A stretch of DNA of 64,000 bases from Marisa cornuarietis (lineage: Eukaryota > Mollusca > Gastropoda > Architaenioglossa > Ampullariidae). Position 1 is the first letter of the stretch, and the number at the start of each line of letters is the position of its first letter. The notes under the pieces are model-generated. The model was given only the letters and a program-made list of their open reading frames with translations, was not told where the DNA came from and did no database searches. Location: the NCBI GenBank assembly GCA_004794655.1, contig SMMW01000056.1:1364001-1428000 (forward strand), in the 5' to 3' direction. This document shows positions 18,429-50,300 of the stretch, one piece after another. The translations under genes were made by a program, and so were the position numbers.

Positions 18429-21400
18429 ATGAAGGCGGTGTTTGTGATTTTCGTCGCCATCGGCACCATTTTTCTGGCACTCGAGAGTGGTAAGTCTCGC
18501 CAACTTTGTGACCGCCACCTGCACGGGACACGTGAAAGTATTTATTTGACTTTATCAACCCTTTGACAAAATGCGGAAATGCAAGTATGGCAGCCATGAT
18601 AAGCCCTCGGTAGTGTTACCTTCACGAGAATCAGTAACATAATTTGACATGTAATAGCTCAGTATTAGATACAAAAACCACGTGTGTTCAAAGTATTACG
18701 GCCATTTATGTTTGCTACTTACATGTTTGTCATAATACACTTACTGTATGTGAGTGGGGAGAACCAGTTTCCTCCCAGAGACAAGAGAAGAGGGGAGAAG
18801 AAAAAAATAAGAGCGCGTGCACGATACACTAATCCCATTCACGCAGAAGTAACGAGATGACTGGATGAATAAATAACAGGCTCTTGCGTGATGCTTGTAC
18901 ACAGTGCAGTGAACAGACAGCACAGACCTTTATTAATCTCACTTTTAGTATACTAATAGACACCCCTGTCCTAAAAAAAATCATACAAGACAGTTTAAGC
19001 ATGTCTGCTTTCACATCAGATTTGGGTATAGCTGTGTTAAGGGCCTAATTTAACTGTGAACAGTGAACACAGTACTGTATAGTATATTTTGGGTCCAAAA
19101 TGTGTTATTGTTATATTAAAAATGTGTTTTAGGAACACTGTAACATAACCTTAACCTCATATATTAAAAAATAACCACATAGAAAATAAACAACAGGTTT
19201 ATATTCCTGCTGTGGCAGATATTGTAATCTTGTTCACTCAGTTCTTTCTTGCATTGTTTACAGGAATTGCCATCAAGTGTTTTGTTTGCAATTCTTACCA
19301 CCAAGCAGACTGTGCGGATTGGTTTGATAACGTCACACAGCACTTAGTTCAGTGTGAAGATGATCAAAATAGATGTCGTAAAGTTGTTCAGGAAGGTTGG
19401 TAACTGTTGATTCCCTAATTTATGTTTTCTTATTGCTTAACTGGTTAAGTTTGTTGATGATTTTCATGTAGACTTCCTTTGACACAATTTGTTTTTCAAA
19501 ATGTATACTTTCATATAAAGATGAGAAAAACTTTTAAAATCTTGTAAAAGTTGACTCACGCACAATTATTTTCAAATTACTGTGCATAGTACTTTCCTTA
19601 AATCCAACAGATAAAGATAAGTTTGTCCTTCTTTGAGGTAAAGTCCTCTAAATTTTAAAGTTGTCTCTTGCATTTTGAAAAGAAATTGCAAAGTTAGGCT
19701 TGCTATCACCACAGGGCCTCATTAATAATAGCTGTTAGATCTTTATTTGGGGCTAACTTTGTTTGACAAGGGTTAAGGGCTATTCTCACATTGCATTGTT
19801 TTCAGGGTTTTGCGCATGCAAGATTTTGCTTATAATGTAGCTTTGCAATAGTTTTCCTTTCACACAGCAAGGCCACTTGCAAATGGCTTGCAAGGTGACA
19901 TCATCCGTAAGAGGAGTATGGGTAGTTAGCAATGTAGCCGACAACATTGACGAAAAGATACAGTAACCCCATGTGGCTGCCTTATTCATATTACTTAAGG
20001 AAACAGAGAGAGAGAGAAGAAACAGATGTGGGCGAGGGAGTGAGTTAATTATACATAGGTATATTAATCTCCCACAGTAATTATAACATACAACATTTCT
20101 ACTCAGACCTCTTCAGCATTTTCACCATGGACCATCATCTACTGGATAAGTGTCTCAGGTTTATATCCGGTGTACGTCTCGGCTTTCCTTATCAGCGAGC
20201 CCGTGTTTCTGGTTCCGGTTTGCTGTTGCGAAGAGACACGGACCTTCATTTAATTTTAATAAAAGTCAGTGGTTTGCAGACATAAATGGATTCGAAAAAA
20301 ACTGACAGGTGCAAATTGTTGCATTGTTGGATGTCATACCAATAAAGCGAGATGTCGTTATCCTCAACAAACAGTAAACATCTATCCTCGTCGCCATCAT
20401 AGCTTACAATACCAACCGACCTTAGCAACGGGGGACTTCCCTATTGTCGTCTGCTAGTAAATGGCGTTGTCGTGAACTCAGTGTTACCACAGACCTTCAT
20501 ATGTGGCATTTATTAAATTAGTTCTTAAAGTAAAGGCTTTTTGTAACAACATAATCTATATAATTGTTTCCAAAAAATCAAAAACGATGCTTTTTTTAAA
20601 AATTGTTAGTGGTAGAGCAATTCAATAGCATGTGTTGTGACGATGTTTTTATATGATAAAATTGATGATAAACCCACATGCGTTTTCTATAAACAACCAA
20701 AATACATTTTACAGAAAATACTACTGTTGATTTTGCAGTCAGTCTTCTTTAACAAGGATCTTATGACAGAAAAGCTTAATTACTTCTAAAATTTCTTCGA
20801 CGTTAGGAAAACCCGCCATTTTGAAATCGGAAACGGAAGTGAAAACCTAACGTTGTAGGGTTTGTAACAATTGGTCACTCCTGTGATAGCGCAAAGAGGC
20901 AACGAATGAGAGACACTCATCCAGTAGATGAAGGTTCATGCTTTTTTTTACCTTGGAGGTAAAGGGGAGTCTACTGTGTTCCAGTATTTTGATTGGCTAC
21001 AGCCATACAATGCAGGTCATGCCTTGTGAAAAATAGAATCGTGTCCTATCCGTATCTGTGCAAACCTTGCTTCAAGACCCCTTGCAAACCATGTGCGAAG
21101 GTTACAAGGCTTGTATAACCCCAGTAGTGAGGTACATTGCAACGTGATTATAGCCCTTTAGCCTTTAAGGATGAATGTTGCTTTGTATTTTGTTTGCTTT
21201 TGCGTGAGCCCTGCTTATGTCATTTTTATTTTGTTTGTGCAGTCTGGATTGATGACCACTGGGATGTTCGCTACATTCGCCAGTGTGCGAAGGATGGTAC
21301 AATAGGTCCTTACCAAGGTCGTATATGTCAGGAAAGATACGGCTCCTACAATGTGCGCATGCGCTACTGTCACTGTGACAACCAAGATGGCTGTAATTCT

Positions 21401-21505
21401 GCTCTGTCAACTAAAATGACACCAGGTTCACATCAGTTAATGCTTTTGATGCTGACTTCCTTTTTCGCTTTTTGTTTGCCACATCTGCTCGTTCTTCGGA
21501 GATGA
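18429..21505 (+). CDS. Ly6/uPAR domain protein, gene A (3 exons)
   Basis: Exons 18429-18489, 19264-19395 and 21243-21505 join with phase-1 GT-AG introns to give 151 residues. Exon 1 encodes a signal peptide (MKAVFVIFVAIGTIFLAL). Exons 2-3 encode a three-finger Ly6 domain with ten cysteines that starts IKCFVC and ends DGCN. NVT is a likely N-glycosylation site. The last 25 residues are hydrophobic and end LRR, consistent with a GPI-attachment signal or a membrane anchor. The nearest style is the invertebrate quiver/sleepless/crooked-neck-like Ly6 group; the ligand is unknown. Exon 3 lies in tandem unit 1, while exons 1-2 lie outside the units and are unique. It looks like one of the two parental genes of the array. 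Confidence 0.88.
20126..20940. mobile_element. TIR DNA transposon in gene A intron 2, with a possible THAP-like remnant
   Basis: The ends are about 31-bp imperfect inverted repeats. CATGGACCATCATCTACTGG starts at 20126, and its mirror, ending CAGTAGATGAAGGTTCATG, finishes at 20940 (about 27 of 31 match). Inside, near 20310-20335, one frame reads NCCIVGCHTN, like the first zinc ligands of THAP domains found in P-type transposases, but the frame soon breaks. It is about 815 bp long and non-autonomous or decayed. No target duplication is clear. The left edge of the 7.36-kb tandem unit (20657) falls inside this element. Confidence 0.62.
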
Positions 21506-26441: not shown

Positions 26442-28871
26442 ATGAAGACAGTTCTACTTGCTTTCGTGGTGGTTGGGACAATTTATTCGTTTCTGGATAC
26501 AGGTAAGTTCGAACACGCATTCGTAACGGTGCCAATAACACACCTTCAAACAATTGCTCGTTGCAGATGTGAGAAAAAGAGAAGAGGAAAAACAAGACAA
26601 ACGACATCATTTGTCTTTCCGTTTACTTTCACGCTTGAGTGAACTCAACCGTCCGCTCGCCGTCCGTTTCAGGAAAAATCTGTGCACTTACAGGAATTCG
26701 CAACATACTGCAGTTGCCGTCTTTAAAAACAACTGTTTTTGCGATGTGTCTAACATGAGATGTTCTTTAAAACACGTGAACACTTTTCGAGTGTGGGTCA
26801 GCTTGTGAAAGAGAAACTATGTCAAGCGTGACAGCTATAAATTCTCCCCTCCCCTAGTTTTGTAGGGGAAGAGCTTTTGTCGTGTTTCAGTAATAACACA
26901 ACAGGACTGTATATGTTTCTGACCATCTTTACAAAGAACTGTACTTGGTCACCTGTGCTAGTCACTTCCCTCACCTTCCACTTGTATTTGATATTTTATC
27001 TCATGTTTATTACCAATTATTTTGGTATTCTTTTAATTATTTGTTTATTCTTTCCCCGTACGGGGCGAGGGCTAAATAAAAAAAAATCACCTTCTCGCTT
27101 ATTTACCTCTCGTGAATAAAGAATTGTCATTGTCATTGTAACATGTAGCTAATAATAATAATGAAGATTTTTATAGCGCATATTCACACTCATAGAGAAC
27201 ATGCTCTTAGCGCTTAAAACGGGGAAGAGACATGGACTACATGGATAGAACACGAGGAATAAACGACAGTACTGACGACAAACAGAAAACAAAGACAGAA
27301 AACACAAAAAGACACCAAGTAACAGGAACAGAGACTATAGTGATTCTGCAGAGAAAGATGGGGAGAAAAGTAACAAGAGCGGAAGGAGGGAGGGTAAGAA
27401 GGATGAGTATTGTGTGGACTGTGTTAGGAGTAATGCTCAAGGAAGAGGTGCTAACATCTGTATTTGTTGTAAACATCTGTCCTGTCATTTGTAAATTTAT
27501 TTATTACGCTCGTCCACATTCTCTTTACTCTCTGATGTGTTCTTTATTTATATTTTCTTCTCTTCTCTTTTCTTCTCTGCTTTTCTTTTGTTCTTAGTTT
27601 TATCCTGTAAACCTCTTTCACTCTAAGTTGTAGTGTAATACTTTTTTTAAATTGCAAGTGTCTGTACATTATGAATTTGTTGAGGTTTAGTAGTCATTTG
27701 TTTTCTTCTTGAAATATCTGCGTTGTAATCCACGAAGATAGCATTTCCATAACATGCATGATTGATTTACTTGCCGAGATACAATCCTGCAAAGACTATA
27801 ATGGTCAATCGCCTCTACAAACCTCTACAAACTTTTACTTTATTTCAGTATTTGCCATCAAGTGCTTTAACTGCAATTCCTACCACCAGCCTGATTGTGG
27901 GGATTGGTTTGACAATGTCACCCAGCACCTGGTCAACTGCTTCGACTGGCAGACAAGGTGTCGGAAGGTGGTACAAGAAGGTGAATCTTTGAGATATTTA
28001 GTTCCGGTGGTTCTTTGTTTTGTAAAATTGATGATAAACCCACATGCGTTTTCTATAAACAACCAAAATACATTTTACAGAAAATACTACTGTTGATTTT
28101 GCAGTCAGTCTTCTTTAACAAGGATCTTATGACAGAAAAGCTTAATTACTTCTAAAATTTCTTCGACGTTAGGAAAACCCGCCATTTTGAAATCGGAAAC
28201 GGAAGTGAAAACCTAACGTTGTAGGGTTTGTAACAATTGGTCACTCCTGTGATAGCGCAAAGAGGCAACGAATGAGAGACACTCATCCAGTAGATGAAGG
28301 TTCATGCTTTTTTTTACCTTGGAGGTAAAGGGGAGTCTACTGTGTTCCAGTATTTTGATTGGCTACAGCCATACAATGCAGGTCATGCCTTGTGAAAAAT
28401 AGAATCGTGTCCTATCCGTATCTGTGCAAACCTTGCTTCAAGACCCCTTGCAAACCATGTGCGAAGGTTACAAGGCTTGTATAACCCCAGTAGTGAGGTA
28501 CATTGCAACGTGATTATAGCCCTTTAGCCTTTAAGGATGAATGTTGCTTTGTATTTTGTTTGCTTTTGCGTGAGCCCTGCTTATGTCATTTTTATTTTGT
28601 TTGTGCAGTCTGGATTGATGACCACTGGGATGTTCGCTACATTCGCCAGTGTGCGAAGGATGGTACAATAGGTCCTTACCAAGGTCGTATATGTCAGGAA
28701 AGATACGGCTCCTACAATGTGCGCATGCGCTACTGTCACTGTGACAACCAAGATGGCTGTAATTCTGCTCTGTCAACTAAAATGACACCAGGTTCACATC
28801 AGTTAATGCTTTTGATGCTGACTTCCTTTTTCGCTTTTTGTTTGCCACATCTGCTCGTTCTTCGGAGATGA
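26442..28871 (+). CDS. Ly6/uPAR domain protein, gene B: chimera of D-type exons 1-2 and A-type exon 3
   Basis: Exons 26442-26502, 27849-27980 and 28609-28871 join with phase-1 introns to give 151 residues. Exon 1 is a signal peptide (MKTVLLAFVVVGTIY). Exon 2 reads AIKCFNCNSYHQPDCGDW, as in genes C and D. Exon 3 is identical to that of gene A. The ten Ly6 cysteines, the DGCN end, the NVT sequon and the hydrophobic C-terminus are all intact. Intron 2 is itself hybrid: 42 bases of D type up to 28022, then A type carrying half of a TIR transposon. All splice sites are kept, so the chimera should be expressible. Its function is unknown; it is probably GPI-anchored or secreted. Confidence 0.86.
26971..27138 (+). 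mobile_element. (TCATTG)n-tailed dispersed repeat in gene B intron 1 (also in C and D)
   Basis: It runs from TCACCTTCCACTTGTATTTG through the CCCCGTACGGGG palindrome to GAATTGTCATTGTCATTG. It is the plus-strand counterpart of 15748-15915. The tandem amplification carried it to 34335-34502 and 41699-41866. Confidence 0.75.
27151..27450 (-). mobile_element. dispersed ~300-bp (TTA)n-tailed repeat, copy 3, minus strand (also in C and D)
   Basis: On the minus strand it has the landmarks of the copies at 3510 and 7190 in the same order, ending GCGCTATAAAAATCTTC plus (ATT)n at 27151-27163. It is carried along at 34515-34814 and 41879-42178. The 121-residue open frame that crosses it is not a gene. 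Confidence 0.72.
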
Positions 28872-31800
28872 TCGTCTTATTTTTTTCTGTTCTCATTTTG
28901 CTGTTGGCAACATGTCTGGTAAAAGGCCGTCATATCATTTGCTTTTCTACTGATATGAAGGACTTTTATTTTGTAGAATGTGGTAGATTCCCTATCAATA
29001 GTTGCGCCTTCATCCTTCTCAGTTGTTAAGCAAGTTGGTCTTGAGCAATATGTTCAGCATGCATTAGCCATTAATGATCCTTCATGATATTACTGTACTT
29101 TTGTCACTCTGGTTTCATTCTAGAAGTCAGCAGATAAACACTAACTCCTTTGAGAAGGATGTCAGCAGATAAACACCAACTCTTCTGAAAAGCCATTTTT
29201 AAAGTATAGATATGATTGTAGTTGGGTGGAACAAATTGTCTTGTAAATTTTACCATATCATTTCATAAACTCACATCTTTATTTTGATAAAAACTAATTT
29301 TCCCTTATGAATATGATTTTTTTGTATCTCACATATCTGAAGAAATATTTTGACGAACAATTCTTGTGCATATGTTAAGAAGCAGTTTGTGTGTGCATGC
29401 ATGTGAATATGTGTGTTAATAATATAAAAGTGGCTGGAAGAGCAGCAGAAAGAGAAATAATCATTTGAATGTGATGCTACCTTAGAGTTTAAATTTTTTT
29501 TCTAAACAATAATTCTATACATTTCATTTTTTCCATAAGCGAGTACCTTTATTCATTAAAAGGAACATTATGTGTCCTGTAGATCCTGTGTGACACTAAT
29601 CATGTATCAAAAGACAGTTTGAAAGCAACAATCCCTGTGAATTTAGAGAGATAATAGTGCAAATCCATTTCTTCAACACAGCAGTTTGATGCTGTTATGC
29701 AACACTGAAGTTTAATGGTTGAGATGTCGGCAAAACCAACAAAGAAAACCTAGGCATCCTACATGTTCAGGCAAATCCATTCCTTTTAGCCGTTTCTTGA
29801 AGTGTATCTTATGTCCACTTTTTGGACTCAATTTTGGCATCATAGAGGCCTAGTTATCTCCGTGTACTTATTTACGTGTAAATTATATAGGAGTTATTCC
29901 ATATTTCTATACTCCAAACCGACCACGTATTTGATGATTTATAAAGAGGCTCAGCAGTTTTGATTTTTCCAGCATATTCTTTGTCAGCCTTTACTTTCGG
30001 CTGTTCCTCTTGAGAAAAAATTCCATTTGCCCATGTTTTTTGTGCATATGTTTATGTGTTCAGCCAAAATATTTCACCCATCCCCCTCCCTGAAACAAAA
30101 ATTCCAATTTGTATCATTGGTCAGTGCTGTAGTCAGCCTGATTGTGTGTCCAAATATCGGTGTCTTATGCCATGCATTCTTTCATGAGTTGCAGCAACAT
30201 CAGTGTCTTTGAATGATGAGTCATGAATGTTACTTATAGAATAAGCTTCCCCATAACTTTTCAAAACAATGTTTTAAAGAGGAACATTGAATGGGGTATG
30301 TTTGTCACTGGCAGAAGCAATCTTTTGCTCTGCATTGTTATGGATCTGAGTTAGCAATGACTGTTCATAATAGGCAGTAGGGGAGAGATTAACACCATTT
30401 ATTTCTTCCTAATATAACAACATTGTTTACAGTAAATGAATTCACCACACTTACAGTATGACAACTTCTGTTTTAAAGACCAGTCTCTTCTGCATTATAG
30501 TACATACAGATACATGGAGTATGATCTGTACTGTTTATTGTAATGCTGTACTTCCTAGAGCTGCATATTATGATAAAGTCTGTTGGCAAACAATTGAAAG
30601 AACATTTGATAGGTTTTTGTAATATTCTTGACAAAATCTGTCTATGAGAAGAAAGACAAAAAGTACTGGATGCACAACCTTTGTAAAACTGCTTTAGGAA
30701 TCATGGTTTTTCTGTGATGTCAGATTGAGCCTATCGGTCCTAAGGATTGTTTTGTTTCCATATTCGAAAGTTGTATATTTATGACTTTCAAAGTCTTTAG
30801 ATCTCTGCCAAGATAGTTTTCCAGTGTTGGCTTATACCATTAAATTTTTCTAAAAGATATTTGAATTCTGCCCACCTCTTCCTATGGAGGAGTTCCCCTT
30901 ATAGCTAAAATTATCAAATGATCAAGGTGATGCTAGATAACTAAGCCTGTAATATTAAATATGTACGTTTATGTACAACATTTATAATATTTCAGTGAAA
31001 CAAAGCAGGTTGCAGTAGTAAAGGCATTTTTGAAGTTCTGTATATATGCATATGTTTGCATGTTTTTTTTGTGCTGTAACTGTCACATTAGCATCAGATT
31101 ATTTTTTTAACTAGTTTTTAATGAAAAGAAGTATAATCACTTTTCATTTTCTTCAAACTCAGGTCATGCATTTCTAATGATGGTATATGATTTAGTTATA
31201 CATTCAGTTGATGCACTGAAAAGATTTGTTTTTTCCCTTAAGTTGACAGAAGGGGGATGGTGTTGATGAATTACCATATGGCTTGTGCTTAACTTGATGT
31301 TAAACAAAGTACACATAATCGTCATCACATATCATTTTACAGCAGTTTCAGATGTCAAGGAACTTAACTGTGGTAGATCTTCCTAGTTGAATTGTTCTCA
31401 TATTAACATAAAATTTCATTTACTGCTGTCAATTTTAGGTACATGGCTAATAATGTCTTGCATGCCATCTTCCCTTTGTGTTTGGGCTCAGAAGCTGATT
31501 GTGTTTTTGTTTTTGTTTGTTTTTTTGTTTTGTTTTTTTGCAAAATTTGAAAAAACAGTGCTATTTGCAGTCACATCATAATTGTGATGGTGAAGGTTCA
31601 ATATGTAAGCAAACGAGATTATTTCATGTCATTCATGTGCTTTGTGATTGAAATTGCATTTCATTTTTACCTTGCAATTAAAAGCTGTTGACATAATGTT
31701 AAACCTCCAGGGAAGATAGTTGCTAAAATAGTTTTGAATAACCTGTGAATAGTGTAATAGTAGTGATTCAAACTATTGTCATAAGAATGAAACAGCCTGC

Positions 31801-34800
31801 AGAGTCAAAGCAGGGCCTTAGACACTTACACTGTTTAAATCTTTAATCTAGCTAGCATTATATGCAAAAATAATTACTGATTTAGTGATAGGAGATGTAA
31901 ACTTGGTGTCATTTAGTTTTGCCAGTCACAATCATTTCTGACATGTCAATTTTTTTTTCTTGCTAAGAGGTACATTTGTCTTGACCCAAACAAAAAGGGT
32001 AAGCAGATAAACTGGTAATACTAATAATACCAAATGAAGGGCAATGTAGGATAAGTAATCAAATGATGTTTGTCTAACAAGCTTCCACTTAAGCACTGCG
32101 ATTGGTTAAAAAGTGGTGCAGATGTTTCTTATCACAAGTACAGCATGTTTTGTGGCCTTATTTTTTAATTTCACAAGAATAATATGCATTGTACATATGT
32201 AAAGTATTACTCTCTGTACATATACAAATATACGCAGGATTGCTTTGTAGGAAAACGTATCATAATTATGTGGAGCTTAAGTGAAATTTTTAACGATTTC
32301 AACAGGCTTCTCTTATGCTCAAAATCCCACCATGACTCACTATATTAACAGACTTTTGAAAATCTTCTGTGACATTTTTCTAGAAATCGCTATGGTATAC
32401 CTTCACAAGTTGTTAGCGCCTTGATGTCATGGTGTGATACAAACGGCTTCTAAAACATCTGTAGATAGCTGTGCTGTCATTCTGTCAACAAGGGTGGACT
32501 GTAGAAACAGTGAAGAATTGTGAAGACTTTGTGACACACATACATGTATAGTGTAGCCTCGTTCATGTCATAGTGACTGACAGCAGAGATATTGCAAATA
32601 AATAAATAAATAAATAAATAAACATAAAAATCAATCAAAATCGGAAAGCTGTTGCTCAGGAGCACAAAATAAAACAGTGAAGATCAGTATAGCAGTCTAC
32701 AACATTAGACAAACATTCAAAAAGTATTGGTGTGCAGAGGCAGTGCATATTCTTATAAATACTGTAATAGTCATAGTCACAGGCGGTGTACCAGGTGTAT
32801 GTGTTTGATCATAATAACAAAGCCTTATCACTTGCTTCTTAAAGTACGCTGTTAAGGTGTCCACTTGTATGTTTTTGACAGAAATCCTCAGCAGCTTAAC
32901 TTAAAGCTGTAATGTATCCAGCAAAGGATATACAATTCTGTCTCTAGAAATTATAACTACAGTGTAATCGAAGGGAGGTAGAGTACCCGGAGACATTTGC
33001 CGGAATGTTCTGTGGCCAGTTTATCAGCGTCCGTGGAAGTGACCCTCCGGGCAATCCATTGCTCCCTCCTCCATTATTATATTTTCACTTTTAAATCAAG
33101 AGTTCCATTTACTATCCAGCTTTCACAGCATGTACTTGCATCGTTTTTAACAGTTGTATAAAAATGTAAATAAAAGTTTATTGATCTGCTAAAGTACGGT
33201 TTATATTTACAAAGATGTTTGTAATAAAGAAAATAAAATCTGACCAGGCGTTTTGTCTCATCGTGTCCAGTGTGCAGAATGCATTTTAGGGTAGTAGTCA
33301 TGATGGAGTAAATGATTTTTCAGTTCTGTTTATGTGCATGATCATGCAGGCTCATGGATAAGTGACAACTTGTCAAATTATTATTATTCTTAAATTGGAG
33401 CTGAATTCACAGATCTTTGCATGCTAGCCACTCGCTGTGTGTGTGTGTGTGCATATTATATTTAGTTCCGGAAGCTGTATAAATAATCTGAAGTAAAATT
33501 AAGATTCCGTTGGAAGGGAAAAAGAAGACGGAAGTGTTCGGGGAATCGAGGTATGTCAGCATGATAAAAAAAATTAGAGTTAAATTCTACCCTAATGACG
33601 AGGGTGTCGTGCGTGGAGGCTTGTTGGAGTTTTGTGAACACCTTTACAACACACCTTATTACTAAAGCAATCCTCAACAGAGCCCCTCAGGTACAGAGCG
33701 CCATCAGTCATGTAGGAGACAGCGGCCACCATACCTGTGGGCTGTCAGGAGACCTTCTAGTGGCAAACAACAGCCGGGACGACCTGAAGACACAAGACAG
33801 GGACAATGAAGACAGTTCTACTTGCTTTCGTGGTGGTTGGGACAATTTATTCGTTTCTGGATACAGGTAAGTTCGAACACGCATTCGTAACGGTGCCAAT
33901 AACACACCTTCAAACAATTGCTCGTTGCAGATGTGAGAAAAAGAGAAGAGGAAAAACAAGACAAACGACATCATTTGTCTTTCCGTTTACTTTCACGCTT
34001 GAGTGAACTCAACCGTCCGCTCGCCGTCCGTTTCAGGAAAAATCTGTGCACTTACAGGAATTCGCAACATACTGCAGTTGCCGTCTTTAAAAACAACTGT
34101 TTTTGCGATGTGTCTAACATGAGATGTTCTTTAAAACACGTGAACACTTTTCGAGTGTGGGTCAGCTTGTGAAAGAGAAACTATGTCAAGCGTGACAGCT
34201 ATAAATTCTCCCCTCCCCTAGTTTTGTAGGGGAAGAGCTTTTGTCGTGTTTCAGTAATAACACAACAGGACTGTATATGTTTCTGACCATCTTTACAAAG
34301 AACTGTACTTGGTCACCTGTGCTAGTCACTTCCCTCACCTTCCACTTGTATTTGATATTTTATCTCATGTTTATTACCAATTATTTTGGTATTCTTTTAA
34401 TTATTTGTTTATTCTTTCCCCGTACGGGGCGAGGGCTAAATAAAAAAAAATCACCTTCTCGCTTATTTACCTCTCGTGAATAAAGAATTGTCATTGTCAT
34501 TGTAACATGTAGCTAATAATAATAATGAAGATTTTTATAGCGCATATTCACACTCATAGAGAACATGCTCTTAGCGCTTAAAACGGGGAAGAGACATGGA
34601 CTACATGGATAGAACACGAGGAATAAACGACAGTACTGACGACAAACAGAAAACAAAGACAGAAAACACAAAAAGACACCAAGTAACAGGAACAGAGACT
34701 ATAGTGATTCTGCAGAGAAAGATGGGGAGAAAAGTAACAAGAGCGGAAGGAGGGAGGGTAAGAAGGATGAGTATTGTGTGGACTGTGTTAGGAGTAATGC

Positions 34801-35386
34801 TCAAGGAAGAGGTGCTAACATCTGTATTTGTTGTAAACATCTGTCCTGTCATTTGTAAATTTATTTATTACGCTCGTCCACATTCTCTTTACTCTCTGAT
34901 GTGTTCTTTATTTATATTTTCTTCTCTTCTCTTTTCTTCTCTGCTTTTCTTTTGTTCTTAGTTTTATCCTGTAAACCTCTTTCACTCTAAGTTGTAGTGT
35001 AATACTTTTTTTAAATTGCAAGTGTCTGTACATTATGAATTTGTTGAGGTTTAGTAGTCATTTGTTTTCTTCTTGAAATATCTGCGTTGTAATCCACGAA
35101 GATAGCATTTCCATAACATGCATGATTGATTTACTTGCCGAGATACAATCCTGCAAAGACTATAATGGTCAATCGCCTCTACAAACCTCTACAAACTTTT
35201 ACTTTATTTCAGTATTTGCCATCAAGTGCTTTAACTGCAATTCCTACCACCAGCCTGATTGTGGGGATTGGTTTGACAATGTCACCCAGCACCTGGTCAA
35301 CTGCTTCGACTGGCAGACAAGGTGTCGGAAGGTGGTACAAGAAGGTGAATCTTTGAGATATTTAGTTCCGGTGGTTCTTTGTTTTG
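28023..35386 (+). repeat. 7.36-kb tandem unit, copy 2 (7364 bp)
   Basis: This is the middle copy. It contains gene B exon 3, the spacer and gene C exons 1-2. It joins copy 1 at GTTTTG|TAAAATTG, where D-type intron sequence meets A-type intron sequence with at most one base of overlap. I see no base difference from copy 3 in the stretches I compared. Confidence 0.95.
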
Positions 35387-36235
35387 TAAAATTGATGATA
35401 AACCCACATGCGTTTTCTATAAACAACCAAAATACATTTTACAGAAAATACTACTGTTGATTTTGCAGTCAGTCTTCTTTAACAAGGATCTTATGACAGA
35501 AAAGCTTAATTACTTCTAAAATTTCTTCGACGTTAGGAAAACCCGCCATTTTGAAATCGGAAACGGAAGTGAAAACCTAACGTTGTAGGGTTTGTAACAA
35601 TTGGTCACTCCTGTGATAGCGCAAAGAGGCAACGAATGAGAGACACTCATCCAGTAGATGAAGGTTCATGCTTTTTTTTACCTTGGAGGTAAAGGGGAGT
35701 CTACTGTGTTCCAGTATTTTGATTGGCTACAGCCATACAATGCAGGTCATGCCTTGTGAAAAATAGAATCGTGTCCTATCCGTATCTGTGCAAACCTTGC
35801 TTCAAGACCCCTTGCAAACCATGTGCGAAGGTTACAAGGCTTGTATAACCCCAGTAGTGAGGTACATTGCAACGTGATTATAGCCCTTTAGCCTTTAAGG
35901 ATGAATGTTGCTTTGTATTTTGTTTGCTTTTGCGTGAGCCCTGCTTATGTCATTTTTATTTTGTTTGTGCAGTCTGGATTGATGACCACTGGGATGTTCG
36001 CTACATTCGCCAGTGTGCGAAGGATGGTACAATAGGTCCTTACCAAGGTCGTATATGTCAGGAAAGATACGGCTCCTACAATGTGCGCATGCGCTACTGT
36101 CACTGTGACAACCAAGATGGCTGTAATTCTGCTCTGTCAACTAAAATGACACCAGGTTCACATCAGTTAATGCTTTTGATGCTGACTTCCTTTTTCGCTT
36201 TTTGTTTGCCACATCTGCTCGTTCTTCGGAGATGA
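33806..36235 (+). CDS. Ly6/uPAR domain protein, gene C: chimera, identical to gene B
   Basis: Exons 33806-33866, 35213-35344 and 35973-36235 encode the same 151 residues as gene B, with the same signal peptide, ten cysteines, NVT sequon and hydrophobic tail. The exons are shifted by exactly 7364 bases from gene B, and the introns are also identical. Exons 1-2 belong to tandem copy 2 and exon 3 to copy 3. It is either a very young duplicate or an assembly copy of gene B. Confidence 0.85.
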
Positions 36236-39200
36236 TCGTCTTATTTTTTTCTGTTCTCATTTTGCTGTTGGCAACATGTCTGGTAAAAGGCCGTCATATC
36301 ATTTGCTTTTCTACTGATATGAAGGACTTTTATTTTGTAGAATGTGGTAGATTCCCTATCAATAGTTGCGCCTTCATCCTTCTCAGTTGTTAAGCAAGTT
36401 GGTCTTGAGCAATATGTTCAGCATGCATTAGCCATTAATGATCCTTCATGATATTACTGTACTTTTGTCACTCTGGTTTCATTCTAGAAGTCAGCAGATA
36501 AACACTAACTCCTTTGAGAAGGATGTCAGCAGATAAACACCAACTCTTCTGAAAAGCCATTTTTAAAGTATAGATATGATTGTAGTTGGGTGGAACAAAT
36601 TGTCTTGTAAATTTTACCATATCATTTCATAAACTCACATCTTTATTTTGATAAAAACTAATTTTCCCTTATGAATATGATTTTTTTGTATCTCACATAT
36701 CTGAAGAAATATTTTGACGAACAATTCTTGTGCATATGTTAAGAAGCAGTTTGTGTGTGCATGCATGTGAATATGTGTGTTAATAATATAAAAGTGGCTG
36801 GAAGAGCAGCAGAAAGAGAAATAATCATTTGAATGTGATGCTACCTTAGAGTTTAAATTTTTTTTCTAAACAATAATTCTATACATTTCATTTTTTCCAT
36901 AAGCGAGTACCTTTATTCATTAAAAGGAACATTATGTGTCCTGTAGATCCTGTGTGACACTAATCATGTATCAAAAGACAGTTTGAAAGCAACAATCCCT
37001 GTGAATTTAGAGAGATAATAGTGCAAATCCATTTCTTCAACACAGCAGTTTGATGCTGTTATGCAACACTGAAGTTTAATGGTTGAGATGTCGGCAAAAC
37101 CAACAAAGAAAACCTAGGCATCCTACATGTTCAGGCAAATCCATTCCTTTTAGCCGTTTCTTGAAGTGTATCTTATGTCCACTTTTTGGACTCAATTTTG
37201 GCATCATAGAGGCCTAGTTATCTCCGTGTACTTATTTACGTGTAAATTATATAGGAGTTATTCCATATTTCTATACTCCAAACCGACCACGTATTTGATG
37301 ATTTATAAAGAGGCTCAGCAGTTTTGATTTTTCCAGCATATTCTTTGTCAGCCTTTACTTTCGGCTGTTCCTCTTGAGAAAAAATTCCATTTGCCCATGT
37401 TTTTTGTGCATATGTTTATGTGTTCAGCCAAAATATTTCACCCATCCCCCTCCCTGAAACAAAAATTCCAATTTGTATCATTGGTCAGTGCTGTAGTCAG
37501 CCTGATTGTGTGTCCAAATATCGGTGTCTTATGCCATGCATTCTTTCATGAGTTGCAGCAACATCAGTGTCTTTGAATGATGAGTCATGAATGTTACTTA
37601 TAGAATAAGCTTCCCCATAACTTTTCAAAACAATGTTTTAAAGAGGAACATTGAATGGGGTATGTTTGTCACTGGCAGAAGCAATCTTTTGCTCTGCATT
37701 GTTATGGATCTGAGTTAGCAATGACTGTTCATAATAGGCAGTAGGGGAGAGATTAACACCATTTATTTCTTCCTAATATAACAACATTGTTTACAGTAAA
37801 TGAATTCACCACACTTACAGTATGACAACTTCTGTTTTAAAGACCAGTCTCTTCTGCATTATAGTACATACAGATACATGGAGTATGATCTGTACTGTTT
37901 ATTGTAATGCTGTACTTCCTAGAGCTGCATATTATGATAAAGTCTGTTGGCAAACAATTGAAAGAACATTTGATAGGTTTTTGTAATATTCTTGACAAAA
38001 TCTGTCTATGAGAAGAAAGACAAAAAGTACTGGATGCACAACCTTTGTAAAACTGCTTTAGGAATCATGGTTTTTCTGTGATGTCAGATTGAGCCTATCG
38101 GTCCTAAGGATTGTTTTGTTTCCATATTCGAAAGTTGTATATTTATGACTTTCAAAGTCTTTAGATCTCTGCCAAGATAGTTTTCCAGTGTTGGCTTATA
38201 CCATTAAATTTTTCTAAAAGATATTTGAATTCTGCCCACCTCTTCCTATGGAGGAGTTCCCCTTATAGCTAAAATTATCAAATGATCAAGGTGATGCTAG
38301 ATAACTAAGCCTGTAATATTAAATATGTACGTTTATGTACAACATTTATAATATTTCAGTGAAACAAAGCAGGTTGCAGTAGTAAAGGCATTTTTGAAGT
38401 TCTGTATATATGCATATGTTTGCATGTTTTTTTTGTGCTGTAACTGTCACATTAGCATCAGATTATTTTTTTAACTAGTTTTTAATGAAAAGAAGTATAA
38501 TCACTTTTCATTTTCTTCAAACTCAGGTCATGCATTTCTAATGATGGTATATGATTTAGTTATACATTCAGTTGATGCACTGAAAAGATTTGTTTTTTCC
38601 CTTAAGTTGACAGAAGGGGGATGGTGTTGATGAATTACCATATGGCTTGTGCTTAACTTGATGTTAAACAAAGTACACATAATCGTCATCACATATCATT
38701 TTACAGCAGTTTCAGATGTCAAGGAACTTAACTGTGGTAGATCTTCCTAGTTGAATTGTTCTCATATTAACATAAAATTTCATTTACTGCTGTCAATTTT
38801 AGGTACATGGCTAATAATGTCTTGCATGCCATCTTCCCTTTGTGTTTGGGCTCAGAAGCTGATTGTGTTTTTGTTTTTGTTTGTTTTTTTGTTTTGTTTT
38901 TTTGCAAAATTTGAAAAAACAGTGCTATTTGCAGTCACATCATAATTGTGATGGTGAAGGTTCAATATGTAAGCAAACGAGATTATTTCATGTCATTCAT
39001 GTGCTTTGTGATTGAAATTGCATTTCATTTTTACCTTGCAATTAAAAGCTGTTGACATAATGTTAAACCTCCAGGGAAGATAGTTGCTAAAATAGTTTTG
39101 AATAACCTGTGAATAGTGTAATAGTAGTGATTCAAACTATTGTCATAAGAATGAAACAGCCTGCAGAGTCAAAGCAGGGCCTTAGACACTTACACTGTTT

Positions 39201-42200
39201 AAATCTTTAATCTAGCTAGCATTATATGCAAAAATAATTACTGATTTAGTGATAGGAGATGTAAACTTGGTGTCATTTAGTTTTGCCAGTCACAATCATT
39301 TCTGACATGTCAATTTTTTTTTCTTGCTAAGAGGTACATTTGTCTTGACCCAAACAAAAAGGGTAAGCAGATAAACTGGTAATACTAATAATACCAAATG
39401 AAGGGCAATGTAGGATAAGTAATCAAATGATGTTTGTCTAACAAGCTTCCACTTAAGCACTGCGATTGGTTAAAAAGTGGTGCAGATGTTTCTTATCACA
39501 AGTACAGCATGTTTTGTGGCCTTATTTTTTAATTTCACAAGAATAATATGCATTGTACATATGTAAAGTATTACTCTCTGTACATATACAAATATACGCA
39601 GGATTGCTTTGTAGGAAAACGTATCATAATTATGTGGAGCTTAAGTGAAATTTTTAACGATTTCAACAGGCTTCTCTTATGCTCAAAATCCCACCATGAC
39701 TCACTATATTAACAGACTTTTGAAAATCTTCTGTGACATTTTTCTAGAAATCGCTATGGTATACCTTCACAAGTTGTTAGCGCCTTGATGTCATGGTGTG
39801 ATACAAACGGCTTCTAAAACATCTGTAGATAGCTGTGCTGTCATTCTGTCAACAAGGGTGGACTGTAGAAACAGTGAAGAATTGTGAAGACTTTGTGACA
39901 CACATACATGTATAGTGTAGCCTCGTTCATGTCATAGTGACTGACAGCAGAGATATTGCAAATAAATAAATAAATAAATAAATAAACATAAAAATCAATC
40001 AAAATCGGAAAGCTGTTGCTCAGGAGCACAAAATAAAACAGTGAAGATCAGTATAGCAGTCTACAACATTAGACAAACATTCAAAAAGTATTGGTGTGCA
40101 GAGGCAGTGCATATTCTTATAAATACTGTAATAGTCATAGTCACAGGCGGTGTACCAGGTGTATGTGTTTGATCATAATAACAAAGCCTTATCACTTGCT
40201 TCTTAAAGTACGCTGTTAAGGTGTCCACTTGTATGTTTTTGACAGAAATCCTCAGCAGCTTAACTTAAAGCTGTAATGTATCCAGCAAAGGATATACAAT
40301 TCTGTCTCTAGAAATTATAACTACAGTGTAATCGAAGGGAGGTAGAGTACCCGGAGACATTTGCCGGAATGTTCTGTGGCCAGTTTATCAGCGTCCGTGG
40401 AAGTGACCCTCCGGGCAATCCATTGCTCCCTCCTCCATTATTATATTTTCACTTTTAAATCAAGAGTTCCATTTACTATCCAGCTTTCACAGCATGTACT
40501 TGCATCGTTTTTAACAGTTGTATAAAAATGTAAATAAAAGTTTATTGATCTGCTAAAGTACGGTTTATATTTACAAAGATGTTTGTAATAAAGAAAATAA
40601 AATCTGACCAGGCGTTTTGTCTCATCGTGTCCAGTGTGCAGAATGCATTTTAGGGTAGTAGTCATGATGGAGTAAATGATTTTTCAGTTCTGTTTATGTG
40701 CATGATCATGCAGGCTCATGGATAAGTGACAACTTGTCAAATTATTATTATTCTTAAATTGGAGCTGAATTCACAGATCTTTGCATGCTAGCCACTCGCT
40801 GTGTGTGTGTGTGTGCATATTATATTTAGTTCCGGAAGCTGTATAAATAATCTGAAGTAAAATTAAGATTCCGTTGGAAGGGAAAAAGAAGACGGAAGTG
40901 TTCGGGGAATCGAGGTATGTCAGCATGATAAAAAAAATTAGAGTTAAATTCTACCCTAATGACGAGGGTGTCGTGCGTGGAGGCTTGTTGGAGTTTTGTG
41001 AACACCTTTACAACACACCTTATTACTAAAGCAATCCTCAACAGAGCCCCTCAGGTACAGAGCGCCATCAGTCATGTAGGAGACAGCGGCCACCATACCT
41101 GTGGGCTGTCAGGAGACCTTCTAGTGGCAAACAACAGCCGGGACGACCTGAAGACACAAGACAGGGACAATGAAGACAGTTCTACTTGCTTTCGTGGTGG
41201 TTGGGACAATTTATTCGTTTCTGGATACAGGTAAGTTCGAACACGCATTCGTAACGGTGCCAATAACACACCTTCAAACAATTGCTCGTTGCAGATGTGA
41301 GAAAAAGAGAAGAGGAAAAACAAGACAAACGACATCATTTGTCTTTCCGTTTACTTTCACGCTTGAGTGAACTCAACCGTCCGCTCGCCGTCCGTTTCAG
41401 GAAAAATCTGTGCACTTACAGGAATTCGCAACATACTGCAGTTGCCGTCTTTAAAAACAACTGTTTTTGCGATGTGTCTAACATGAGATGTTCTTTAAAA
41501 CACGTGAACACTTTTCGAGTGTGGGTCAGCTTGTGAAAGAGAAACTATGTCAAGCGTGACAGCTATAAATTCTCCCCTCCCCTAGTTTTGTAGGGGAAGA
41601 GCTTTTGTCGTGTTTCAGTAATAACACAACAGGACTGTATATGTTTCTGACCATCTTTACAAAGAACTGTACTTGGTCACCTGTGCTAGTCACTTCCCTC
41701 ACCTTCCACTTGTATTTGATATTTTATCTCATGTTTATTACCAATTATTTTGGTATTCTTTTAATTATTTGTTTATTCTTTCCCCGTACGGGGCGAGGGC
41801 TAAATAAAAAAAAATCACCTTCTCGCTTATTTACCTCTCGTGAATAAAGAATTGTCATTGTCATTGTAACATGTAGCTAATAATAATAATGAAGATTTTT
41901 ATAGCGCATATTCACACTCATAGAGAACATGCTCTTAGCGCTTAAAACGGGGAAGAGACATGGACTACATGGATAGAACACGAGGAATAAACGACAGTAC
42001 TGACGACAAACAGAAAACAAAGACAGAAAACACAAAAAGACACCAAGTAACAGGAACAGAGACTATAGTGATTCTGCAGAGAAAGATGGGGAGAAAAGTA
42101 ACAAGAGCGGAAGGAGGGAGGGTAAGAAGGATGAGTATTGTGTGGACTGTGTTAGGAGTAATGCTCAAGGAAGAGGTGCTAACATCTGTATTTGTTGTAA

Positions 42201-42750
42201 ACATCTGTCCTGTCATTTGTAAATTTATTTATTACGCTCGTCCACATTCTCTTTACTCTCTGATGTGTTCTTTATTTATATTTTCTTCTCTTCTCTTTTC
42301 TTCTCTGCTTTTCTTTTGTTCTTAGTTTTATCCTGTAAACCTCTTTCACTCTAAGTTGTAGTGTAATACTTTTTTTAAATTGCAAGTGTCTGTACATTAT
42401 GAATTTGTTGAGGTTTAGTAGTCATTTGTTTTCTTCTTGAAATATCTGCGTTGTAATCCACGAAGATAGCATTTCCATAACATGCATGATTGATTTACTT
42501 GCCGAGATACAATCCTGCAAAGACTATAATGGTCAATCGCCTCTACAAACCTCTACAAACTTTTACTTTATTTCAGTATTTGCCATCAAGTGCTTTAACT
42601 GCAATTCCTACCACCAGCCTGATTGTGGGGATTGGTTTGACAATGTCACCCAGCACCTGGTCAACTGCTTCGACTGGCAGACAAGGTGTCGGAAGGTGGT
42701 ACAAGAAGGTGAATCTTTGAGATATTTAGTTCCGGTGGTTCTTTGTTTTG
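35387..42750 (+). repeat. 7.36-kb tandem unit, copy 3 (7364 bp)
   Basis: This is the last copy. It contains gene C exon 3, the spacer and gene D exons 1-2. At 42750 identity to the other copies stops: the next sequence is TTTTGTTTAGATTGGGTC, the native continuation of gene D intron 2, instead of TAAAATTGATG. This marks the right parental breakpoint. Confidence 0.95.
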
Positions 42751-45555
42751 TTTTGTTTAGATTGGGTCTTTGTTGTTGTTGTTGTTGTTGTTGTTTAAAT
42801 GCTGTCGACTTACCGTACCATGTAGGACTTGCTTACTACTGCCCAAGAAGGCCTCAGCTGCACACCGTTTATTCAGCCTGTCTATCCAGTCTCTCCCGTC
42901 CCCGATGACCTGTACTAGCTTACTACCAGCATATGACAGCGATTTCCGGTCTAAGGAATGAATGAATTTCCTCAGGAAAAAAAAACCGCGGATAGATGAA
43001 GGTAGGGAATGAGAGACTGTGGCAAGATAGAGGAACTGAGGGAATGGGAAACGGTAGCAAGAAGAAGGAAAGGAGGAATGACAAATATAGCAAATCTTTA
43101 TTTGCGAGGGTAACAGAATAAGCAAACATGAGTTTTTACATCTCGCCATCGAACTAAGGAAAGGAAACTTAAACACTACTAAACTGTAAAACAAATCCAT
43201 TCAAGAGAGAAAATTAGAATATACACAAAGATCGAGGTTGTTGTCTACTTTGAACAGTACTGTCCACACTTGCTCCAAGATCACTGGTGTCAATTAAAGA
43301 TTTTGCTTCTTTTGGTGAGATAGGATATGATATACTGTAGCAGAGCACTTGTTTCAGACAGCATGTACCGCTGACAGTACTTTGTTCCCTCCACCCTGCA
43401 CACCCTTCAGCCCCACGCTTGGTCGTGCGAGCGGAGTATCACGAGACAAACAGACGACACAGGGGGTAATGTAGCACCCAAATATTTTAGTATAATTAGC
43501 CGGAAAAAGTCGGTTCTTGCAACCGTTACCGAAAGGCGACTGGTCCTGCTTGGAAAAGCAGCAAAAGCATCCTGAGTACGAGCGATTACCATTTTGCCAC
43601 AAGGTGCCATGGTCCTGCTGGAAAGCGGCTCACGTCTCTCAACCCCCTGTCTTACCTCCTTCACCCCAGGTTTTAGTAGGTTAGCTAGAATAGAAATAGT
43701 AGTCGTAGGTGTAAATTATGTAAGTAAAATCTATGTTTTTGAACTTATTTACCTGTGTGAGTCCGCACGAATGCTAGCGTGATGTACGTGTGTCCTCGTC
43801 GTGTGAATGAGATGAACGAGTATCACTAGAGCGAAAGAAATTGTGTCCGTAATGGTGACACAGAAGAACACACATAAAGATCCGTGGAGTTGAACAATAC
43901 ACCAGAGAAAACACACTTTTTCTGGGAAAAAGCAGGGTCTTTTGTGGATTCCAAGGTCGACTAAGTGTGGGTGTGTAGTAGATGGGGAAAAAGAACACAA
44001 CGCGAGGTATCACCTTAGATAACGCACCCGACGAACGAGAGCTAGAATTTTAACAGAAAATTCTCCTCGGGAACTTCCGTCCTCTTCCCTGGAACCCTAA
44101 AGAGGAAGGGACTGATTTGGTGCTAGGACCGTATGCAGTGTTAGTCCGAGTGATGAAAGCGGATCGTTTTCTAGTGTTTATAGTCCGGCTACAATACAGT
44201 CCACAGGGGCCGTAGTCTCCTTATAGCGTCTAGAGCCGCTTATAGACCGTGCTGCTTCAACAGGAAAATTTGTTTTATTGACTTCAGGCAAAAGTCGCTT
44301 TCTCTATGTATGTAGAAGCCATAGACATTTAAAAATCGATTCTACTCAGCAATAGTGCAGGAAATGGTACGTGTGTGTGTGTGTGTGTGTGTGTTGAGGA
44401 GGGGGGGGGCAGTGTAGTGGTTAAAACACTCATTCATCACCCCTGCAGCCAGAGGCCCTGGGTTCAGATCTCGCCTGGATGTGACATATATTTGCAGGAC
44501 CTGCCGTCGGAGGTTTTCTCCGGTTTTTTTCCCCGCCCCCCTCTTTCCGCATAGTGTGAAATCACCTTTAGGAGGAAGCACTTTCTCGCTAAAACAACCA
44601 TCCAGCCAATCAACAAATGCGCGCTCGTGTGCGTGTGCACGTGCGTGCGAAACGCACTGAACATTTTTAAAAGCTATAATAATGAGACGATGTGTTCTTT
44701 CTTATAATTATTTAACACACGCCATTTGATTAGTTAGTCGTCTCTCGTTCGTTACATGCATTTATTGTCATTAAAAAATTTTTGTTACTTTACTTTTTTC
44801 GAAACGCCCCTCGTGGACAAAGACTATACCGTATCCTCACTATTCATCGCTGTTCCCCTCATATCTCTGCCTCACTGACTCTACCTCACTCATGTCCCAA
44901 CATTATTGTCCTTCCTCGCTCTGTCTCACTCATGTCTCTATTCCACAGTCACTTAGTCCTCACTGTCTCTTTTTCCTGCCCTGTCTTTGCCTCACTCATG
45001 GTCCTCTATCAACCCACGACCTCGTCTAATGTCCCTACCATGTGTAGTTACTCTCCTTGTCTCAATCATGTCTTTGTCTCATTGTTTTTACCTCAGCCAT
45101 GACCCTACTTCCCCTGCCTCACTCATGTCCCCACCAATCTTGTCAGCATTTAAGATTTATATCGTCTACGTCACTGATCGCTCATGAATTTTCGGCAAAC
45201 GGCAAATTTCACCAAGCGATGCAAACACATTACTTGTTGAGTTGTTGTAGAATATCTCTCAAAGTTGTTGTAATCGTTCTCAATGTTGTTGTCTGCAGTG
45301 TGGGTAGAAGACCACTGGGATGTGCGCTACATCCGCCAATGTGCTGGCGGCGGCGAGATCGGTCCCTACGACGGGCGCGTGTGTCAGGAGCGCTACGGCT
45401 CCTACAACGTGCGGATGCGCTACTGCCACTGCGACAACCAAGATGGCTGCAACGCCGCGCCGCCAGCCCTCGCTCCCGCCACTACCCAGTATCTGCTGCT
45501 GCTGCTGACGTCGGCAGCGTTTCATGTCCTGGTCAGCGGCTCTCGTACAAGATGA
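41170..45555 (+). CDS. Ly6/uPAR domain protein, gene D (3 exons)
   Basis: Exons 41170-41230, 42577-42708 and 45299-45555 join with phase-1 introns to give 149 residues. Exons 1-2 equal those of genes B and C. Exon 3 is unique: it matches the A-type exon at about 46 of 54 domain residues (DHWDVRYIRQCA and YGSYNVRMRYCHCDNQDGCN are unchanged), but its codons are much more GC-rich. The ten Ly6 cysteines are present. The tail is an APPALAPATT stretch followed by LLLLLTSAAFHVLV and SRTR, compatible with a GPI signal or a membrane anchor. It is probably the second parental gene of the chimeras. Role unknown beyond the three-finger Ly6 family. Confidence 0.87.
42751..45298 (+). other. unique part of gene D intron 2
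   Basis: This is 2.5 kb that lies outside the tandem units. It holds a (GTT)n run at about 42772-42794, a GT microsatellite near 44371-44394, the SINE at 44401-44612 and an unassigned, more GC-balanced stretch (about 43370-44240) with no recognised coding. The intron ends TGTCTGCAG. Confidence 0.6.
44401..44612 (+). mobile_element. tRNA-derived SINE in gene D intron 2
   Basis: The head has GTGTAGTGGTTAAAACACT (A box) and GGGTTCAGATCTCGCC (B box, about 44459-44474). The body follows with GGAGGTTTTCTCCGG and GGAAGCACTTTCTCGC. It is the same family as 8458-8686. A G-run of nine and a GT microsatellite sit directly upstream. Confidence 0.75.
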
Positions 45556-47304: not shown

Positions 47305-50300
47305 ATGATGGCGACAGGTCGCTTGTTTGTGGTGCTGTTGGGTGTAGTGTCATTTTCAACGCTTGGTAAGTGAAGAGTGGAAGTAAGATGACGAGAAATT
47401 CTGTCGGTTTAATAAATCGACATTTTCTACAGAATATTTTTGTGGTGGGATGTTTTAATTTGTCTTTCAAAGTCAAGAAAGCGTTGGCAGTCGTGAGCAA
47501 AACAGCAACAGCGCTTCCGGTATTTGGGGTGACACTGAGCTTAGTACACAACAAATGTGCTATTATTCTGATGTCCTTTTTTTTTGGTGATTTTTTGATG
47601 ACTTATTTGAAAATGCTAGTAAACTATATATTTAACAAGCCGAAAAAAATTGCATACTGCGTGGGAACAAACTAGTCCTTATCATGAAAATCTGAAGTGC
47701 TCAATAAAGACTAATTTGCAGGCTCCAGTACATGACCAAAACCATCTCTGCGTTGGAAAATATATAAATCATGGCGTGTGGCTGTTTCCAAGTCTTTTTG
47801 TGTGTTTTTTGGGCTCAAGCCAGAATATTCTGCATGTCTGTCCTCATCACAAAGCTTTCATTCCAACCTGTCCCTTTCATTGTGTGCTGACCTCTTGATC
47901 CAGCTTCGTGTTGTACCTGTTTCAAGTTATTTTTCAGCCAGCTTAATAATGTAAATTGTGTTTACAGGTTTAGCCATTCAGTGCTACCAGTGTGACAGCA
48001 ATGAAGATGTTACCTGCCCTGCGGATGACAGATTCGATACAACTATCAATGCAGTGGTGGACTGCAACAGCTTTGAGGCAAACATACCCGGGCAGTTCTG
48101 CATGAAGGTCTACCAGGAGAGCCCTGGGTGTAAGGCAGATTTTATTATAATACAAACCATGTAATTTTTAGTTTGAGACACAGGGTATTCCTGTGTGCAC
48201 TGTACATGTCTGTGCCATTCTAGGAACAAATTTGACAGGAGGGGGACCAGCATTGGAGAGTGTATTTGACCTACACTGTGGTAGAAATTCAAGGCAGGAC
48301 TATGGAAATGTATGCAGTGACATGTAGAAATTGTCTTGTGGTATACATTTGCAGTCAAGTGATGTTTGCCATCCAGTGGTGGTATTTTATTGAACAAGTT
48401 GGTATTTTTGGTGGATAATTTAGTCATCTGTTCTTGTAAAAGATAAAGTGCGGTGACCAGACACTTAATCCCCTAGACATTTAATCCCTAGCCACTTAAT
48501 CCCCAGACACTTAATCCTCAAAAATGCCCCCAAATCGCGTCACAACACTCAAAACTATTTTGTGAACTTGAAATATTATAACCGTAAGAGAAGTGTGTCG
48601 CGTGGTAACTCTAATGAGATGTAACAATCGCCCCAACTAGGGTACCTCCGATCATTAGCTTACCTGTCATATTGATTAACAACACTTTTCATGTCATATT
48701 GTTGAAGAACATTGACTATAATAGCTCACATGAACTTTAACTAATGTTATAGATGTTGAAGTATTATTTTAATTGTCAAACTTACTTTGATGTTTACATG
48801 AAAATAATTATTTGAATTTGAATTAAATTTTTCATTCACTTCATAATTTTTTTAGTTGAAATTTAATTTTGAGGATTAAGTGTCTGGGGATTAAAAGTTG
48901 GGGGATTCGATGTTTGCCATCCAGTGGTGGTATTTTATTGAACAAGTTGGTATTTTTGGTGGATAATTCAGTCATCTGTTCTTGTCAAAGATAAAGTGCA
49001 TAGAAGCTGTTACAGAAAGTGGCGTAGGAAGATGCTCGGCTTTGGGGGGTGGGGGGCAGCTCCATGCTGACAGTGAATGACGTTCACATTTTTGCCTTCC
49101 CAGTATCTTTTTCTTGCCCCCGTGGTTCCTACACCACTGAGAAATGAAGTGCTTGGTATGATCACATTTGAACAGAAGTACAGAGAGCTGAGGAGATTAA
49201 AGCAGAGGAGAATGGGACTGATGATAACTGTGATGATGGTGATAATATATATTTTTTCCATCAGTTAAAATTAAGTGTAAGGTCACACAGCTAAATTTGA
49301 AGGTCTGCCTAGTGTTGGTTTGGTATATTGGTTGAACAGTGCATGAGCAGCTGCTACTCCCCAGTCACATTTGTTCTGCATTTTGAAATTAAATAGTAGA
49401 ATACATTATGTACACCCACTTGCCACTCATCACGACTATCATTCCTGCCTATTAGCTAGCAAACTGAATGCCTGCTAACTCTGAAAGTATGGGTGGATTA
49501 CATTAGTTGATGAGCCATTATCACTTATTTTTTTTGCTTGGCTAGGGGGAGGATGGAAGAAGCTAACCAGGAGATGTGGCTCCCGAACAGATTTTGGTAA
49601 GACCATTTTGCATTAAGCAAGCATTTTAACTGCATAGAAAGAGATTTAGAAATTGTTCAAAACAGATATTTTACAAAAATGATACTTTCTACTTTAATAT
49701 TAATTGCATAAAGAGCATGAATGAAAGGTTTTGATTCAATAATATGCATGTTCGTTCATATTTAAAAGGATAATTTGCATCCCTCTCCGTAAAATAGTCT
49801 AGTTCTGCTGAAAGGTTGGTTTGATAATTCCTCTGCATGTGGACGTTAATGACTAGATCACTTTGAAAGAGGGAAATGATGTATATGACACATTATGAGG
49901 ATCAGAGCGCTCTCTCCATTTATAGACGTTTCCTCATTTTAACTCTGATTGCCTCCCTTACAGGCAAAATGTCTCCTTCAGGGACCAGTTGCACAACACA
50001 TTTCTAATTTTAAACACTTTTAGGCCTTAACTCTATTTAGATAATTAGTTTAAAGTGCACACCACAATTTTAGAATATTTACAACTCAAACTGCTTTAAG
50101 TAAGATAAAGTTGTTTAAGTCTGACTTTCCGTCCTGTCAGTACAATTTTTTGTATGTTTTTCTGCAATCCATCAAAATTGCTAAGAAGAGATTTTGCTTC
50201 TTTAGAACAGTTTTAAGGTTTAGAAACGTGTTGTGCAACTGGCCCCAGATCGCCACCATTTTGCCAAAAAGAAAGAAAAGATTGTCACAAATATATATAA

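Follow-up and report, generated by a model that had tools for sequence, protein, structure and literature searches.

Two identical copies of a putative D/A hybrid Ly6 gene in Marisa cornuarietis, probably formed by tandem duplication with breakpoints inside introns

In the 64,000-nt stretch of Marisa cornuarietis DNA analysed here (the window), two Ly6 genes, A and D, flank two further genes, B and C, each consisting of the first two exons of D and the last exon of A. It is likely, taking the explanation as a whole, that the stretch between A and D was duplicated in tandem very recently and that this produced D/A hybrid genes with D-like expression. The gene models were read from the sequence, and their exon 3 coordinates include the full stop codon. 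The features are as follows.

18429-18489, 19264-19395, 21243-21505, plus strand: gene A, QVR/Ly6, orthologue of Pomacea canaliculata LOC112566812
26442-26502, 27849-27980 (both D-type), 28609-28871 (A-type), plus strand: gene B, chimera (gene model)
33806-33866, 35213-35344 (both D-type), 35973-36235 (A-type), plus strand: gene C, chimera, protein same as that of B
41170-41230, 42577-42708, 45299-45555, plus strand: gene D, QVR/Ly6, orthologue of P. canaliculata LOC112576234
20657-28022, plus strand: tandem unit copy 1 (self-comparison and alignment of copies), 2 bp longer than copies 2 and 3
28023-35386, plus strand: tandem unit copy 2 (self-comparison and alignment of copies)
35387-42750, plus strand: tandem unit copy 3 (alignment of copies)
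28022..28023, no strand: junction 1, D intron 2 joined to A intron 2 (copy alignment and edge comparison)
35386..35387, no strand: junction 2, same sequence as junction 1 (copy alignment)
20538-20662, plus strand: repeat element, with an inverted copy at 13441-13564 that is 88% identical

In all four genes, both introns have GT-AG borders and are in phase 1. Intron 2 measures 628 bp in B and C, 1,847 bp in A and 2,590 bp in D. The intron-2 donor of A, GTTGGT, looks weak; B and C use the donor of D, GTGAAT. The D-type exon 2 of the chimera encodes NCFDWQTRCRKVVQE and its A-type exon 3 encodes VWIDDHW...AKDGTIGPYQGRI. An earlier note on this DNA had placed the unit edges in the second introns of A and D, had described B and C as exons 1-2 of D joined to exon 3 of A, and had reported phase-1 introns with intact splice sites; the gene models, the alignment of the copies and the comparison of the introns agree with all of this. 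The ten cysteines that it considered to be kept are present in the domain, while the totals are 11 in A, B and C, which carry one more in the C-terminal tail, and 10 in D. The two chimeric genes of that note are better described as one chimera in two copies, as the B and C proteins are identical at 151/151 residues.

A putative fifth, more distant Ly6-like gene lies downstream of D on the same strand (47305-50665), and the Ly6 cluster thus extends past D. Three exons can be recognised: one at 47305 resembles a signal peptide, another lies near 47969 (AIQCYQCDSNEDVTC), and the C-terminal one, within 50486-50665, has a product that ends in CYCEDKDGCN. A direct repeat of 91 bp is found at 48361-48451 and 48909-48999 (97.8% identical, 548 bp apart). 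At 12332-13178 the window contains open stretches which, we presume, resemble the end of a DDX47-type RNA helicase.

Self-comparison of the window revealed a 7,364-bp unit in three head-to-tail copies. The unit contains, in order, part of A intron 2, A exon 3, the A-D intergenic DNA, D-type exons 1-2 and 42 bp of D intron 2. Its left edge lies 1,261 bp into A intron 2, and its right edge lies 42 bp past exon 2 in D intron 2. Base 42751 (T) is common to both edges and amounts to a 1-bp microhomology. The hybrid gene thus sits at the junction of adjacent identical copies and both parents are intact, as in chimeric genes formed by tandem duplication. The match of the repeat element at 20538-20662 to its inverted copy stops about 6 bp inside the left unit edge, which places the breakpoint at or adjoining the end of an element.

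When the three copies were aligned, no substitutions appeared; they differ only in a dinucleotide run that is one TG longer in copy 1. Such perfect identity over 7,364 bp in three copies is also expected from assembly or polishing, so the copy number could be an artefact in which a single real duplication (two copies), or no duplication at all, was expanded or homogenised during long-read assembly and polishing. Exact copies of about 7.4 kb cannot be counted from short reads. This explanation is nevertheless unlikely, since the two junctions are identical to the base, the window contains no N bases and the edges fall at non-homologous sites inside two genes, a combination that overlapping haplotypes or scaffold gaps do not usually produce. 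These observations say nothing on the exact number of copies.

The tandem duplication of the A-D stretch would have started from the neighbouring paralogous genes A and D. The founding duplication would have run from A intron 2 to D intron 2, and its ends, which have 1 bp of microhomology, would have been linked through end joining or a replication slip. Recombination between paralogous intron sequences was considered as the founding event and rejected. At E 0.001 the second introns of A and D showed no similarity to each other, and introns 1 and 2 and the 2-kb flanks of A and D gave no mutual match on the plus strand at the same threshold. The 600 bp around both edges yielded only short matches with E of at least 0.15. 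The founding event was therefore probably not a recombination between paralogous sequences. The array may then have grown from two to three copies through homologous unequal crossing-over within the initial pair of identical copies, or through another slip. Two base-identical junctions fit one founding event followed by copy gain between identical copies. Under this order of events, which we infer together with the two-to-three step, every internal junction would form a gene of D exons 1-2 and A exon 3, and both parents would be left whole.

The absence of substitutions among three 7,364-bp copies sets a 95% upper bound of 1.4 x 10^-4 changes per site in each lineage. If the rate is assumed to be 3 x 10^-9 per site per year, this corresponds to an age of at most about 45,000 years, a bound that gene conversion or polishing would void. 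The array is either very recent or its copy number is a product of assembly. The event is so recent that a copy-number variant may still segregate in the population. Dating of the A-D split by dN/dS was uninformative: by NG86, dS returned -1 (not computable) for residues 1-115 and 1-64, exon 3 gave dN 0.11 and dS 1.95, and YN00 gave no value for any of the three spans.

The parentage of the chimera can be compared with the related snail Pomacea canaliculata. The protein most similar to A is LOC112566812 of this species (95% over 151 residues), and the one most similar to D is LOC112576234 (94% over 148). A contig of 45,418,568 bp is given for both, which are therefore most likely on one chromosome. 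The same two proteins are the top matches to the chimera, at 83% each. A and D differ at 27 residues within 1-116; at 22 of these each parent agrees with its own orthologue, and these were taken as informative (the other 5, where one orthologue differs, were left out). At these sites B matches D in 16/16 cases as far as residue 56 and A in 6/6 cases from residue 67 onwards. This split follows from the DNA identity of the copies and is not independent evidence. Independent evidence comes from the two P. canaliculata proteins, one of which is A-type and the other D-type at 22/22 sites. In a script test, the pattern of a D-type front and an A-type back appeared in 0/52 matches to the chimera, some of which are exon-3-only fragments unable to show it. 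The earlier note had proposed looking in related species for the parents without the chimera, and P. canaliculata gives this picture, with one A-type and one D-type protein, as far as its predicted proteins and only the representatives of 90% clusters are compared (the D-type cluster has 4 member sequences).

Relatives more distant than P. canaliculata carry the A and D states in other combinations. An Argonauta protein (P0052, 41% identical) has 5 D and 0 A states in the front part and 3 A and 0 D in the back, which is below the test threshold; this hybrid-like lean at 8 sites is most simply ascribed to chance at that distance. In the other caenogastropod proteins, A and D states are intermingled from one site to the next. 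The Batillaria protein P0003, for example, has 7 A and 8 D states in the front and 2 A and 2 D in the back, with no block pattern of the B type. Such mixing could faintly favour the view that the hybrid is ancestral and that a pure A or a pure D gene arose later through gene conversion or deletion, although it indicates that the states are old rather than that B's block pattern is. That view is very improbable: it is largely contradicted by the pure A-type and D-type proteins of P. canaliculata, and junctions in unrelated intron sequence between identical copies look like those of a new event. With P. canaliculata represented by its predicted proteins, A and D are best read as ancestral and B and C as derived.

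A protein tree of 26 rows (24 of the 52 matches together with A and D of the window; the hybrids B and C were left out) placed A and D within a group of ten rows that we take to be caenogastropods (support 93/96, drawn open), with the order unresolved. The timing of the A/D split was thus not settled by the tree. The two P. canaliculata proteins and the crok-like and sleepless-like proteins of Batillaria, Littorina and Babylonia are orthologues or paralogues of A and D; the mollusc matches differ from B and C in the script test described above, where none has the D-front, A-back arrangement. The names crok-like, quiver and sleepless come from the source records of the relatives and are names only, not tested functions.

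With the Pfam QVR profile (PF17064), A scores 47.9 bits, the chimera 48.4 and D 50.0, against a curated cut-off of 27.3. With UPAR_LY6 (PF00021), A scores 13.1, which is below the cut-off of 24.8, and the chimera and D are not listed. By these scores the predicted products of B and C are QVR (quiver/sleepless-type) Ly6 proteins. The ten domain cysteines and a C-terminal CN are present in the Ly6 proteins here. In an alignment of 36 of the 52 matches, 9/10 cysteine columns are invariant and the first cysteine is conserved in at least 90%. According to PMC6600238, QVR/LU genes have three exons, mostly phase-1 introns, the second intron at the tip of loop 2 and ten cysteines, and LU gene clusters are attributed there to gene duplication. 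The genes here have the same exon plan, phases, cysteines and clustering as those described in that source. They depart from the gene duplications described for LU clusters in it in that halves of genes are joined.

The exon boundary was placed on a structure predicted for the A orthologue (mean pLDDT 74.9, pTM 0.50). In this model the strands of the finger-2 hairpin span residues 57-67 and 70-80. Exon 3 starts at residue 65, in the first strand, so the statement of the earlier note that the chimera takes its last finger from A appears inaccurate, the boundary being predicted inside finger 2. The second intron would then lie near the tip of loop 2, which fits the LU gene layout rule of PMC6600238. 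A C-terminal helix at residues 125-150 of the model would fit a GPI signal. In a fold search of the PDB with the model, 0/760 matches reached E 0.001 (best E 0.075) and the TM-scores were low. Among the first 29 rows, judged by title, 28 are LU proteins or complexes with a TGF-beta-receptor-type or LU chain, and the remaining one is titled only Wnt signalling. Searching PDB sequences with the 36-member alignment drawn from the 52 matches yielded no Ly6 relative; the 4 PDB entries that it returned, at E 0.23-0.94, are all immunoglobulin E chains by name.

An intact reading frame is not surprising for these genes. When breakpoints are drawn uniformly at random in the coding spans of A and D, 76% of the pairs are intronic in both genes; 43% of the pairs produce an intact three-exon hybrid, including 35% with both breakpoints in second introns, the case seen here. 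A preserved frame and splice sites are therefore no evidence of function, and the layout of Ly6 genes makes an intact chimera a common outcome. Within residues 24-116, B and D differ at 7 positions that all belong to exon 3, and B and A at 7 that all belong to exon 2. Finger 2, which holds the boundary of exons 2 and 3, scarcely differs between A and D: after the first cysteine of the hairpin (58), only residues 67 (I/V) and 68 (D/E) differ, both conservatively. In Drosophila SLEEPLESS, loop 2 is the target-binding loop (PMC4735452). If loop 2 has this role here, target binding in B and C would be as in their parents, and the two would differ from them in which loop 1 accompanies which loop 3 and in the tail of the anchor.

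Upstream of the start codon, B and C match D over about 5.78 kb except for one TG, and their 3' DNA is that of A. D-like expression is thus the simplest prediction. B and C would be transcribed from copies of the upstream DNA of D and end in the 3' region of A. Their products are putative three-finger proteins, newly formed if the models read from the sequence are right; they would be GPI-anchored QVR-type Ly6 proteins that act for the most part like additional D, but with loop 3 and the anchor signal of the A type.

There is about an even chance that B and C are real genes without a protein role of their own, being silent or merely adding to the dose of D, which is compatible with the tandem duplication of the A-D stretch as far as B and C being real genes is concerned. 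The 43% of intact chance products and the mere 7 mature-domain residues that separate B from D would agree with this. Tandem duplications that form chimeras are also at lower frequency in Drosophila than whole-gene duplications, which according to the authors suggests predominantly detrimental impacts (PMC5460883). Against it, the Drosophila chimeras bear signs of selection for spread more often and often change expression (PMC5460883), and B and C keep the upstream DNA in common with D. The copies are too young to show purifying selection. It is rather improbable that the array is a real, recent and possibly segregating D/A hybrid in two copies, active in the tissues of D with loop 3 and membrane tail of the A type, and positively selected for copy number. 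Were that reading true, gene birth would have been caught with zero decay time, in a Ly6 family where any breakpoints in introns of the same number yield a full-length protein.

The formation of genes through tandem duplication with intragenic breakpoints is already well known, and this locus is ordinary in kind, though a neat example. One D. yakuba data set contains 76 chimeric genes among 1,116 tandem duplications (PMC5460883). The Drosophila chimeras, as described in PMC5460883 and PMC4503668, are alike to the one found here in that intragenic breakpoints give a hybrid that is often polymorphic and young. At the present locus, taken by itself rather than against the Drosophila parent pairs, the parents are paralogues with the same exon plan, and the hybrid is a normal full-length member of the family, present twice. 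Among the titles and abstract openings listed in a literature search, no report of a mollusc Ly6 chimera appeared. General ideas on gene birth are left unchanged by this locus. If confirmed, it would be a clean natural case in which recombination through the introns of three-exon phase-1 Ly6 genes immediately yields full-length proteins, and one where the two parents, the junction and the parental orthologues are all known. The chimera exchanges loop 1 against loop 3 while loop 2 stays nearly constant, and it could thus help to ask which loop sets the specificity of these proteins.
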